Positions 38,917-43,184 of a DNA stretch of 64,000 bases are shown piece after piece. The stretch is taken from the NCBI RefSeq assembly GCF_003111665.1, contig NZ_CP022188.1, positions 434,001-498,000 on the forward strand. Direction: 5' to 3'. How positions within the stretch are numbered: position 1 is the first letter of the stretch; each line of letters starts with the position of its first letter. The notes under the pieces were generated by a model, which saw only the letters and a program-made list of their open reading frames with translations, made no database searches and had not been told where the DNA came from. Position numbers and translations under genes: made by a program. Source of the stretch: Parazoarcus communis. GTDB taxonomy: Bacteria; Pseudomonadota; Gammaproteobacteria; Burkholderiales; Rhodocyclaceae.

Positions 38917-39717
38917 ATGCGCCGCTTTTCCCTGACAATGACCCTGAGCATATGCCTCGCGCTTCCGCTACAGGCCATCGGCCAACAGGCAAGCCCCGGC
39001 CGCCTGGAGCGCGTCATCGCAAACAAGGAGGTCCGCGTCTGCATCTGGCCCGACTATTACGGCATCAGTTATCGCAATCCGAAGACGCAGGAACTCTCGG
39101 GGATCGATATCGATATGGCTCAGGCACTGGGCTCGGACCTCGGCGTCAGCGTCACGTTCGTCGACAGCGCCTTCTCCCGGTTGATCGAGGACATCCGTTC
39201 AGACCGGTGCGACGTCGCCATGTTCGCCGTTGGCATCACGCCACAGCGCAAGGAGAAACTGCGTTTTACCACCCCGCACCTGGCCAGCGACATCTACGCC
39301 ATTGCCTCGAAAACCAACCGTCGCATCAAGCAGTGGGACGATATCGACCAGCCGGACTCAGTCGTTGCGGTAGCGCGAGGCACCCTGCATGAACCGGTGA
39401 TGCGCAGCAAGCTCAAGGCTGCCAAACTTCTGGTACTCGATACCCCCTTTGCCCGCGAACAGGAAGTGCAATCGGGCCGCGCCGACGTATTCATGACCGA
39501 CTACCCCTATATTCAGCGCTTTCTCTCAAATGCACAGTGGGCGCGACTGGTGTCGCCCCCGAGCACCTATCACGTCACGCCCTACGCCTATGCAATTCAG
39601 CCTGGAGATGACGAGTGGCATGCCCGCCTGGAGCGTTTTGTCAGCGATATCAAGCGTGACGGCCGCTTGATGGCTGCTGCCCGGCGCCACAAGCTCGACC
39701 CGATCGTTGCGCCGTGA
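38917..39717 (+). CDS. Periplasmic solute-binding protein (family 3, amino-acid-type)
   Basis: A 266-residue exported protein: signal peptide (MRRFSLTMTLSICLALPLQAIGQ), then a type II periplasmic binding fold. It shows VRVCIWPDYYGISYRNPKTQELSGIDIDMAQALGSDLGVSVTFVD, DRCDVAMFAVGITPQRKEKLRFTTPHL and a SGRADVFMTDYPY segment. AAGAAGGAAG precedes the ATG. No permease or ATPase gene is present. Instead the stop codon overlaps the GTG of a PAS-GGDEF-EAL-CZB receptor (GTGA). I infer that it senses a small ligand and signals through that receptor rather than feeding an ABC transporter. Confidence 0.9.
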   Translation: MRRFSLTMTLSICLALPLQAIGQQASPGRLERVIANKEVRVCIWPDYYGISYRNPKTQELSGIDIDMAQALGSDLGVSVTFVDSAFSRLIEDIRSDRCDVAMFAVGITPQRKEKLRFTTPHLASDIYAIASKTNRRIKQWDDIDQPDSVVAVARGTLHEPVMRSKLKAAKLLVLDTPFAREQEVQSGRADVFMTDYPYIQRFLSNAQWARLVSPPSTYHVTPYAYAIQPGDDEWHARLERFVSDIKRDGRLMAAARRHKLDPIVAP

Positions 39718-42700
39718 CACAGAGCGTGCGCCAACTGCGCCTGACCTTCCTGCTCACGCTCACCCTGTTTTCCGGCGCGCTGCTCGCAATCTCCGGCTAC
39801 ACCCTGTGGCGCCTGAACGCGGACGCAGTGCGTGCGGGCTTTGAGATCTCGGCCCTCCACAGCCGCAGCTTCGAGGACTACCTGACACAGAGCTTGCATG
39901 TTGCCGAACTGGCGGCAGCGACCGCCGTTTCCGATAGCGGCGGCCAGCCCGATCTGGAAGCGATCGAAGCGGCATTTCTCGCCATCCTGCGCCACTCGCC
40001 CTACCTGCGCTCGATGTCGCTGCTCGATGAGCATGGCCGGATCATTGCCAGCTCCAACCCTGCCAATATCGACAAGACGATCACGCTGGAGGGTTATCTC
40101 CCGCCGGTAAACGGCCCCCGGGAGATCCTGCGCATTGGCGCCCCCTGGGCTGGACGGGATTTTTCCGGCGGCCGCCCCTCCACGGCTGACGCCCCCCTGG
40201 ACGCAGATGCCCTGAGCTTCATCCCGGTCACTCGCAGCCTGGCCTTTGGCGACAGCACACGCACGATCCTGATCGCGCTGAACCCCGACCACTTCGTCAA
40301 CCAGATGTCGCAGACGCTCAAGCTCGACACCGCCCTGATCGAAGTGCTGCGATACGACGGGACGCTGCTGATGACCAACGACCCCGAAGCCCGAACGGGA
40401 GCGGTCAATGCCGACGACCTCAGCGCACTGATGCTGACTGAATCCGAACATGGCCGATTCCAGCACGAAAGCGGCCATTCGCCCAGCGCACTGAGCACCT
40501 TCCGCGCCTCGCCCCTGTATCCCTTCATCGTCGTCACCCACCTTTACCGCGATACGGCGCTGCAAGGCTGGCGCAGCGAAGCCAAGGCGGTGGTGTTCGT
40601 CGTGGGCGCCGCGCTGCTCGCCGTCATCCTGATCGCGAGTGCGTTCTACCGTCGCCGCATCCAGCTGATGGCCCAGCGGGCCGAGGCGGAGCGACTGCAG
40701 CGGATCAATGCCTCGGTTTTTGAGTCCAGCGCCGAGGCGATCGTCATTACCGACGTCAACGCCGACATCATCTCGGTAAACGCAGCCTTTACCCGCATCA
40801 CCGGGTACGAGGCTGCCGAGGTCCTTGGCCGCAACCCCCGTCTGCTCGCGTCCGGCACGCATGACAGGGCCTTCTATACTCGCATGTGGACCACGCTGCT
40901 CAACAACGGATTCTGGCGCGGACAGCTGGTTAACCGCCGCAAGGACGGCACGCTCTACCACGTGCAGATGTCGATCACCGCCTCACGCGACCCCCAGGGA
41001 AAGCTGCAGCACTACATCGGCGACATTGTCGACATAACCGAGCGCAAGCAGGCCGAGGAACGCCTGCACCTCGCTGCGAGCGTGTTCACCCATGCGCACG
41101 AAGCCATCATGATCACCGCACCCGACGGCAGCATCATCGATGTCAACGCGGCATTCAGCCGCATGACCGGCTTCAGCCGCAAAGAGGCACTGGGTCAGAA
41201 CCCTCGTATTCTGAAGTCCGGCCGTCAGTCCGACGAGTTCTACGCAACGATGTGGAAAACCCTGGTCGAGAACGGGCAGTGGTCGGGGGAGGTCTGGAAC
41301 CGGCGCAAGAATGGCGAGGTATTCGCCGAAATGCAGACCATCAGCGCGGTGCACGACGAGCACGGCAATATTCAGCGTTACGTGGCACTGTTTTCCGACA
41401 TTTCCCGGCTCAAGGAGCACGAGAGCCAGCTTGAGCACATTGCCCACTACGATGCGCTGACCAGCCTGCCCAACCGCGTACTGCTTGCTGATCGCCTGCA
41501 CCAGGCCATGGCCCAGGCCCAGCGGCGGAAACAGCGCCTGGCCGTCGCCTATCTCGACCTCGACGGCTTCAAATCGGTCAACGACCACCACGGCCATTAC
41601 GCGGGTGACCAGTTGCTGATGACCGTGTCAACACGCATGCGCCAGACGCTGCGCGAGGGCGACACGCTCGCCCGCCTGGGCGGTGACGAGTTCGTTGCGG
41701 TCCTGGTCGATCTCGATGCGGTCGCCGACAGTGTGACAATGCTCACCCGTCTGCTCGCTGCTGCCGCCCAGCCGGTTCATGTCGACGATCTGGTGCTGCA
41801 GGTTTCGGCCAGTGTCGGCGTCACCTTCTATCCGCAGACGGAGGAAGTGGATGCCGACCAGTTGCTGCGCCAGGCCGATCAGTCGATGTACCAGGCAAAG
41901 CTCTCGGGCAAGAACTGTTATCACGTCTTCGACGCCGATCATGACCGCAGCGTGCGCGGCCACTACGAGAGTCTCGAACGCATCCGCCAGGCAATGACCG
42001 AGCACGAACTGGTCATGTATTACCAACCCAAGGTCAATATGCGCACCGGTATGGTGGTCGGCGCCGAAGCGCTGATCCGCTGGCAGCACCCCGAGAAGGG
42101 ACTCCTGCTCCCAGCCTCTTTCCTGCCGGTCATCGAGAACCATCCGCTGTCGATCGAGCTTGGCGAATGGGTGATCGACTCCACCCTGAGCCAGATGGAA
42201 GCATGGCATGCACACGGCCTCGAGCTGCACGCCAGCATCAACGTGGGTGCCCGCCAGTTGCGCGACCCCGGCTTCGTAGACCGCCTGCGCGAGATCCTGA
42301 GCGCACACCCGCAGATCCTGCCCTCCTGCGTTGAGCTGGAAGTCCTGGAAACGAGCGCGCTCGAAGATCTCGCCGGCGTCGCGGAGATCATCCAGGCCTG
42401 CCGCGATCTCGGCGTTAAATTCGCGCTCGATGACTTCGGCACCGGCTATTCATCCCTGACCTACCTCAAGCGCCTGCCGGTGGCCCAGCTCAAGATCGAC
42501 CAGAGCTTCGTGCGCGACATCCTCGACGACCCTGACGATCTCGCCATTGTCGAAAGCGTGCTCGGTCTGGCCGCTGCCTTCCGCCGCCAGGTCATTGCGG
42601 AAGGCGTGGAAACCGTGGAACACGGGGAGTTGCTGCTGCAACTGGGCTGCGAGCTGGCGCAAGGCTACGGTATCGCGCGTCCGATGCCCGCCGAGGCGAT

Positions 42701-43184
42701 ACCCGGCTGGTGCGCATCCTGGCGCCCCGACCCGACGTGGCAAACTTGCCGGACCGTCAGGCGCAGCGCGCTGCCCCTGCTTTTTGCCAGTGTCGAACAT
42801 CGGGCGTGGATCAGCGCCATGATTCAGTACTTCAAGGGCGAACGTGGGGCCCCGCCACCGCTTGATCGCCATGAATGCGCATTCGGCAAGTGGCTGGATG
42901 CTGGCGGCCTGAACCATCGCCGCGGCGACAAGGCGTGGGAGCAGATTCAGTCCCTGCACCGGGCGATCCATGAACTGGGCACGCAGTTGTGCACGCTGCA
43001 TGATCAGGGTCGACAGATCGAGCTTGAACGAGGCATGTGCGATCTGCTCGAACTGCGCGACACGCTGATTCTGCAGCTGCGGTCATTGATCCAGCTTGCG
43101 GAGCGCCCCGCCAGGCGCAGGACAAAATACCTCCCCGAGGAATCGGTCGAGCAGCGCTCGCTTACTGCCGGCACGGGAAAGTAA
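39714..43184 (+). CDS. PAS-PAS-GGDEF-EAL-CZB membrane cyclic-di-GMP signalling protein
   Basis: A 1156-residue inner-membrane protein. Helix 1 (9-33) and helix 2 (291-312) bracket a ~255-residue periplasmic domain, followed by PAS (~330-440) and PAS (~452-565). GGDEF (570-740) has GGDEF at 656-660 and I-site R647-x-x-D650. EAL (755-1000) has Glu785 in EALIRW, INVGARQ, LEVLET, ALDDFGTGYSS, LKIDQSF and AEGVE, so both cyclase and phosphodiesterase sites look intact. The C-terminal ~120 residues carry a CZB zinc-binding pattern: His1029, Cys1055, His1082, His1086. The spacing (26, 27, 4) is close to the 30, 27, 4 I recall for E. coli DgcZ. GTG start, overlapping the upstream binding-protein gene. 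Confidence 0.93.
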   Translation: MTQSVRQLRLTFLLTLTLFSGALLAISGYTLWRLNADAVRAGFEISALHSRSFEDYLTQSLHVAELAAATAVSDSGGQPDLEAIEAAFLAILRHSPYLRSMSLLDEHGRIIASSNPANIDKTITLEGYLPPVNGPREILRIGAPWAGRDFSGGRPSTADAPLDADALSFIPVTRSLAFGDSTRTILIALNPDHFVNQMSQTLKLDTALIEVLRYDGTLLMTNDPEARTGAVNADDLSALMLTESEHGRFQHESGHSPSALSTFRASPLYPFIVVTHLYRDTALQGWRSEAKAVVFVVGAALLAVILIASAFYRRRIQLMAQRAEAERLQRINASVFESSAEAIVITDVNADIISVNAAFTRITGYEAAEVLGRNPRLLASGTHDRAFYTRMWTTLLNNGFWRGQLVNRRKDGTLYHVQMSITASRDPQGKLQHYIGDIVDITERKQAEERLHLAASVFTHAHEAIMITAPDGSIIDVNAAFSRMTGFSRKEALGQNPRILKSGRQSDEFYATMWKTLVENGQWSGEVWNRRKNGEVFAEMQTISAVHDEHGNIQRYVALFSDISRLKEHESQLEHIAHYDALTSLPNRVLLADRLHQAMAQAQRRKQRLAVAYLDLDGFKSVNDHHGHYAGDQLLMTVSTRMRQTLREGDTLARLGGDEFVAVLVDLDAVADSVTMLTRLLAAAAQPVHVDDLVLQVSASVGVTFYPQTEEVDADQLLRQADQSMYQAKLSGKNCYHVFDADHDRSVRGHYESLERIRQAMTEHELVMYYQPKVNMRTGMVVGAEALIRWQHPEKGLLLPASFLPVIENHPLSIELGEWVIDSTLSQMEAWHAHGLELHASINVGARQLRDPGFVDRLREILSAHPQILPSCVELEVLETSALEDLAGVAEIIQACRDLGVKFALDDFGTGYSSLTYLKRLPVAQLKIDQSFVRDILDDPDDLAIVESVLGLAAAFRRQVIAEGVETVEHGELLLQLGCELAQGYGIARPMPAEAIPGWCASWRPDPTWQTCRTVRRSALPLLFASVEHRAWISAMIQYFKGERGAPPPLDRHECAFGKWLDAGGLNHRRGDKAWEQIQSLHRAIHELGTQLCTLHDQGRQIELERGMCDLLELRDTLILQLRSLIQLAERPARRRTKYLPEESVEQRSLTAGTGK

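Follow-up and report, generated by a model that had tools for sequence, protein, structure and literature searches.

Receptors stimulated by periplasmic solute-binding proteins (SBPs) include diguanylate cyclases and phosphodiesterases (PMC9602780), and in the NspS-MbaA system of Vibrio cholerae, with homologues in Sinorhizobium meliloti, an SBP gates a cyclic di-GMP (c-di-GMP) receptor (PMC8967002, PMC9993111). The locus described here lies in a 64,000-nucleotide stretch of Parazoarcus communis DNA (contig NZ_CP022188.1, positions 434,001 to 498,000; the window). As the initial annotation had it, and as was confirmed, the gene of an amino-acid-type SBP overlaps by the bases GTGA that of a 1156-residue PAS-PAS-GGDEF-EAL-CZB membrane receptor. 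Its statement that binding protein/receptor pairs are known for c-di-GMP enzymes is borne out by NspS-MbaA, ScrB-ScrC and ArtI/STM1987, and an SBP gene next to one for a GGDEF-EAL membrane protein that has a periplasmic domain is indeed the NspS-MbaA type of gene layout. From gene organization and sequence conservation we consider it likely that the SBP is a dedicated co-receptor for the receptor, whose periplasmic domain is of the dCache type, rather than a transport subunit, and that its docking would gate the c-di-GMP output.

Adjacency of the two genes, whose conservation the initial annotation proposed to check, was surveyed at 82 loci, namely 80 relatives kept of 152 found, the own-genome paralogue and the window, with flanks shortened by contig ends at part of them. 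At 73 of the 82 loci the next gene on the SBP strand, or one close behind it, encodes a receptor whose cytoplasmic domains were recognised; in 69 of these 73 the receptor starts between −16 and +49 bases from the SBP stop, and a four-base start/stop overlap as in the window is present in 32 (window included). The loci outside this spacing (L002, L021, L041, L057) have a displaced or broken start or, at L057, an extra gene, a 339-aa open reading frame (ORF) with no Pfam match between SBP and kinase (L057:10786-11805), and at L042 the receptor is reduced to a GGDEF fragment. Among the nine loci without a following receptor, L023, L050, L058 and L071 lie at or near a contig end, where the start of the dCache region is still visible in L058 and the following gene is not judgeable in the other three, and at L044 a kinase receptor is placed directly upstream of the SBP. 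The window dCache region directly matches a region near the SBP in 61 of 81 loci. For the more diverged loci a profile was built from the N-terminal regions of 27 GGDEF-type receptors, and it recognised those of all 40 other pairs (40 of 40) with E 6e-31 or better (best E 0.43 with reversed sequences as controls).

Co-occurrence was determined with thresholds of E <= 1e-40 for the SBP and E <= 1e-5 for the dCache region. In the order sample (200 genomes) the SBP was found in 10 genomes, the dCache region in 11 and both in 10; the corresponding figures were 3, 2 and 2 in the class sample (369 genomes), and in the relatives sample (61 genomes) the same 11 genomes carried each of them. Overall, among 599 distinct genomes 20 have both, one the SBP only, one the dCache region only and 577 neither (Fisher p 4e-35, over genomes that are not independent). 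The dCache region is thus found in 20 of the 21 SBP-positive genomes, and the 21st (G352) has a receptor with a diverged N-terminal region followed by PAS, PAS, GGDEF and EAL that adjoins the SBP in divergent orientation. A tandem arrangement with the receptor holds for 22 of the 26 SBP copies; one copy is divergent, two are split from the receptor by contig ends (G052, G172) and one is alone. The lone copy is the second copy of G566 (Azoarcus sp. L1K30), by coordinates L043, where the SBP is kept and the receptor of its own-genome counterpart, L081, is missing. L081 itself (G000:C1:2602253-2603954, minus strand) is a second SBP-receptor pair of the own genome, with an SBP 60% identical to that of the window, a receptor N-terminal region only 28% identical, and, after it, PAS and GGDEF domains only. 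Natural SBP-receptor fusions were not noticed among the loci, where no systematic search for them was made.

The cytoplasmic parts of the 73 receptors differ, with 38 histidine kinases (10 with REC, two with HisKA_3), 30 GGDEF proteins with or without EAL, two SpoIIE + HATPase proteins, and three with no output assigned (L015 and L052, at contig ends, and L010, which ends early). Limited to c-di-GMP receptors, the interpretation of the initial annotation was too narrow, given the 38 kinases. A search with the receptor N-terminus through 5.8 billion proteins, biased by its length limits toward long proteins and toward close relatives, gave 133 matches among 7998 scored candidates; the 120 matches listed comprise 107 GGDEF proteins with or without EAL, 11 histidine kinases and two SpoIIE proteins (hand count). 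The SBP tree requires eight changes of output (64 labelled rows). By domain content, the SBP/dCache input unit is kept across relatives and the output is exchanged.

Divergence was compared in the 67 pairs with a complete receptor N-terminal region, 15 of the 82 being left out. SBP distances correlate with those of the receptor N-terminal region with a Mantel r of 0.84 (permutation p 2e-4). By output type, r between SBP and N-terminal region is 0.80 (27 GGDEF), 0.90 (11 EAL) and 0.89 (33 HATPase), and that between SBP and output domain 0.49, 0.42 and 0.67, respectively. The partial correlations are 0.74 (GGDEF), 0.88 (EAL) and 0.81 (HATPase) with the N-terminal region, and −0.16, 0.02 and 0.27 with the output domain; the bootstrap interval of the difference excludes zero for GGDEF and HATPase. 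SBP divergence tracks that of the output domain less closely than that of the dCache region. The receptors of L024, L025, L026, L031, L063 and L067 have some 130 additional residues in the N-terminal region, ahead of the first cytoplasmic domain recognised.

As the initial annotation had stated, there is no ATP-binding cassette (ABC) permease or ATPase gene nearby, none being found within 8 kb of the SBP in the window. It had also proposed that an SBP usually travelling with such genes would speak against a receptor role, and the survey came out in favour of that role, with no amino-acid-type permease within 8 kb at any of the 82 loci (some flanks being shorter) by a hidden Markov model that found its target in three of three control loci, themselves drawn from the set used to build it. 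General permease-domain matches are present at three of the 82 loci, all of them at a distance of more than 4 kb, and no ABC ATPase signature comes closer than 3.3 kb, where the nearest one is on the other strand; a cognate permease/ATPase encoded alongside, as characterizes an ABC importer, was not found within 8 kb in the window, nor was an amino-acid-type permease across the 82 loci. With the window SBP as query, the own genome yields six matches, namely itself, the 60% identical paralogue and four distant, weakly similar proteins, three of which adjoin permease genes (within about 0.6 kb, by coordinates), while no permease gene neighbours the first two, again by coordinates. Presenting substrates to transporters is a main role of SBPs (PMC9602780), and 38 permease matches lie elsewhere in the own genome, so that the protein might be an ordinary transport SBP served by a permease encoded elsewhere and set beside the receptor for co-regulation. 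Given the absence of amino-acid-type permeases near the 82 loci and the near-perfect genomic coupling of the SBP to the dCache receptor, this explanation is quite improbable, and the transport-SBP assignment was rejected.

Arg111 and Asp195 of the SBP, to which we presumptively ascribe amino-acid-binding roles, are invariant in 67 of 67 sequences; the ligand is probably a small, amino-acid-like solute. It could be argued that, as in GcbC or SpdE, the signal is bound by the dCache domain itself, and that the SBP is a mere auxiliary for scavenging, delivery or removal of the ligand and does not dock stably. Neither the dCache_1AA motif of amino-acid sensors, [YFWL]xxx(x)[RK]xW[YFW] (PMC11237719), nor the RXYF motif, important in GcbC and KinD (PMC6050961), occurs in any of the 67 receptor N-terminal regions, window included, and the dCache domain was rejected as a direct sensor of the amino-acid or RXYF type. 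The dCache family profile aligns to 3lif before position 117 and after 164, not between, and such close co-divergence with the dCache region would not be expected of a loose auxiliary; the explanation is unlikely. Less likely still, the SBP fold could be a periplasmic enzyme by which the signal for the receptor is made or removed, in keeping with the top solved-structure sequence matches being ancestral and extant cyclohexadienyl dehydratases (5jos, 6wup, 3kbr). However, in an ungapped alignment Tyr198 faces the 5jos glutamate three residues past the conserved Asp, which we take to be the catalytic Glu173, the 6wup glutamate falls in an insertion, Tyr or Phe occupies the place of Tyr198 in 67 of 67 sequences, and AncCDT-1, with Val at that place and presumably non-catalytic, scores equally well. 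With a Tyr in place of the presumed catalytic Glu the SBP lacks what defines a cyclohexadienyl dehydratase; this identity was rejected, and an enzymatic role is barely credible.

Several observations weigh against the co-receptor explanation. The SBPs of L027, L036, L043 and L075 (4 of 82) have no recognised receptor beside them; G097 has a dCache region, on a kinase, with no SBP found beside it, and the dCache/PAS N-terminus of the second copy in G133 (G133:C61, L112) has no more than an SBP-like fragment in front of it. The controls of the profile search were reversed sequences and not unrelated dCache domains, related genomes share history, so that co-occurrence and Mantel values do not count independent events, and the well-supported branches of the SBP tree force only two output changes. 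The raw correlation between SBP and output domain is not nil, and zero lies inside the bootstrap interval of this difference for the 11 EAL rows. Arg148 of the dCache region is invariant (67 of 67), as is Asn190 (54 of 54), and the dCache pocket might accommodate some other ligand despite the absence of the two motifs. Finally, adjacency of SBP and sensor kinase without binding has been described for AgtS, which did not bind its neighbouring SBPs AgtB/PA0602 (PMC11113362).

If the SBP is a co-receptor, it would be exported and would bind its small, probably amino-acid-like solute in the cleft. Either the open or the closed state of the SBP would dock on the dCache domain of the receptor whose gene comes next. 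With the usual direct-ligand motifs absent from the dCache domain, ligand specificity would be supplied by the SBP. Docking would then shift the transmembrane helices, and the PAS pair would relay this to the balance of synthesis by the GGDEF domain and breakdown by the EAL domain, with the CZB domain adding a cytoplasmic zinc or oxidant input in the window lineage. It is a guess, made by analogy with NspS-MbaA, that the receptor might be biased to phosphodiesterase activity at rest and that the docked SBP would move it toward synthesis.

The features of the locus are collected in table 1. The SBP scores 85.1 bits with SBP_bac_3 (PF00497; cut-off 26.4), with a weak Pfam match to Lig_chan-Glu_bd and matches to amino-acid-type SBPs under the cut-off in NCBIfam. 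It begins with a signal-like segment (about residues 1-23), and Cys42 and Cys98, invariant in 67 of 67 SBPs, possibly form a disulfide. A purine-rich, Shine-Dalgarno-like stretch lies immediately 5′ of the SBP start and no clear Shine-Dalgarno sequence directly 5′ of the receptor GTG; translation of the two genes would appear to be coupled. The promoter scan of the locus gave no sigma-70-like site, and terminator-like sites were not above chance. By Pfam and NCBIfam, the flanking genes are apparently unrelated, encoding ATP-grasp and Alpha-E proteins upstream, on the opposite strand, and a carboxyltransferase resembling the methylmalonyl-CoA decarboxylase alpha subunit downstream.

Table 1. 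Features of the SBP-receptor locus, in window positions.
Feature	Position	Strand	Remarks
SBP_bac_3 SBP	38917..39717	+	266 aa, ATG start
GTGA overlap	39714..39717	+	receptor GTG start / SBP TGA stop, four bases
Membrane receptor	39714..43184	+	1156 aa, GTG start
Transmembrane helix 1, about residues 10-32	39741..39809	+	hydropathy; helix in structure model
Periplasmic dCache domain, about residues 33-287	39810..40574	+	proposed SBP docking domain
Transmembrane helix 2, about residues 288-313	40575..40652	+	hydropathy and model
PAS domain 1, residues 334-437	40713..41024	+	Pfam
PAS domain 2, residues 463-564	41100..41405	+	Pfam
GGDEF domain, residues 577-734	41442..41915	+	inhibitory site (RxxD) and GGDEF motif both intact
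EAL domain, residues 755-990	41976..42683	+	EAL, DDFGTG and other conserved motifs intact
CZB zinc-binding domain, residues 1029-1091	42798..42986	+	H1029, C1055, H1082, H1086

The periplasmic domain of about 255 residues given by the initial annotation was recovered and is of the dCache type by fold, a tandem PAS-like arrangement with a long N-terminal helix, even though with 27.8 bits it misses the cut-off of 45 for dCache_1 (PF02743), a profile with which the scanned relatives listed score 21-38 bits. The CZB domain scores 42.5 bits (cut-off 29.4), and its presumed ligands, three His and one Cys, assigned by eye, correspond to the described CZB ligand set (PMC8846402). The double input, periplasmic and cytoplasmic, that this domain was thought to provide stands for the window lineage, where the domain is real. 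It is an accessory one, being present in 5 of the 30 GGDEF-type receptors, 5 of the 82 loci and, as counted by eye, 16 of the 120 matches listed, and was rejected as an essential part.

At 17 of the 39 kinase-type loci (the 38 and L044) an HD-GYP gene closely precedes that of the SBP on the same strand (L049, L051, L053, L054, L057, L059, L061, L062, L064-L066, L073, L074, L077-L080), with a REC match further upstream, on the same strand, at 15 of the 17; counted from the SBP stop, the HD-GYP and REC positions lie about 0.8-2 kb upstream. The proteins carry an HHExxDGxGYP-type motif, and three were confirmed by Pfam (HD_5). Elsewhere, HD-GYP was found within 5 kb at one of the 30 GGDEF-type loci, one of the three with no output assigned and one of the eight receptor-less loci. 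The arrangement may be a single inherited one because the 17 loci come mainly from one SBP-tree clade. It suggests that these kinase versions may also control c-di-GMP, by a second wiring through HD-GYP. That one SBP family, specialised for signalling and with interchangeable outputs, has two independent c-di-GMP wirings, directly through GGDEF-EAL receptors and through histidine kinases behind REC/HD-GYP phosphodiesterase genes, is a proposal for which we see the chances as evenly balanced. Clustering of gene neighbours for hints to the ligand revealed no metabolic partner in clusters that are only partly annotated and contain REC/HD-GYP (at kinase-type loci), ABC-ATPase and other common families, some including opposite-strand ORFs.

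Many c-di-GMP receptors have ligands not yet identified. An SBP tied to a dCache domain with swapped outputs would be a natural set of chimeras, and a ligand screen on the small soluble SBP could name the signal for kinases, cyclases and phosphodiesterases alike. If the explanation is correct, bacteria with two copies, such as P. communis, would have two SBP-receptor channels insulated from each other, and the two pairs of one genome lend themselves to a comparison of docking specificity.

In LuxP-LuxQ of Vibrio an SBP is docked on a tandem-PAS periplasmic domain, as proposed here, but the output is a histidine kinase and the SBP is of a different type. LuxQ is not among the 50 dCache matches listed, which is evidence neither for nor against a relationship. 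NspS-MbaA is similar in that a periplasmic SBP gates a bifunctional membrane GGDEF-EAL receptor and SBP occupancy sets its activity (PMC8967002, PMC9993111). However, NspS binds polyamines and MbaA has SGDEF/EVL (PMC8967002), whereas the window pair, compared by description, has an SBP_bac_3 protein with Arg111/Asp195, GGDEF/EAL, a PAS pair and CZB. ScrB-ScrC of Vibrio parahaemolyticus shares an operon-encoded periplasmic binding protein that switches a dual-function c-di-GMP enzyme (PMC10269520), but belongs, again by description, to a three-gene operon with the signal-making ScrA, of which no counterpart was recognised beside the window pair. In Salmonella, the putative arginine-binding protein ArtI and STM1987, a diguanylate cyclase with dCache_1, are both needed for the arginine response; they are not described as an adjacent pair in the accessible text, and the domain set of STM1987, a diguanylate cyclase, differs (PMC8846402). 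GcbC differs in carrying RXYF, absent in the window family, and in responding to citrate (PMC6050961). Cyclases that contain both EAL and CZB have been described as a subgroup, with no SBP partner mentioned in the accessible part of that source (PMC8262984). In Dechloromonas aromatica, an SBP gene adjoins a GGDEF gene inside a hydrogenase cluster (581371-581372; table in PMC2907700). In the partly accessible literature searched, no earlier description of an SBP/dCache family with swapped outputs was found. Thus, the mechanism class, that of SBP-gated c-di-GMP enzymes, is already known, and what appears to be new is the modular SBP/dCache unit with its swapped outputs.
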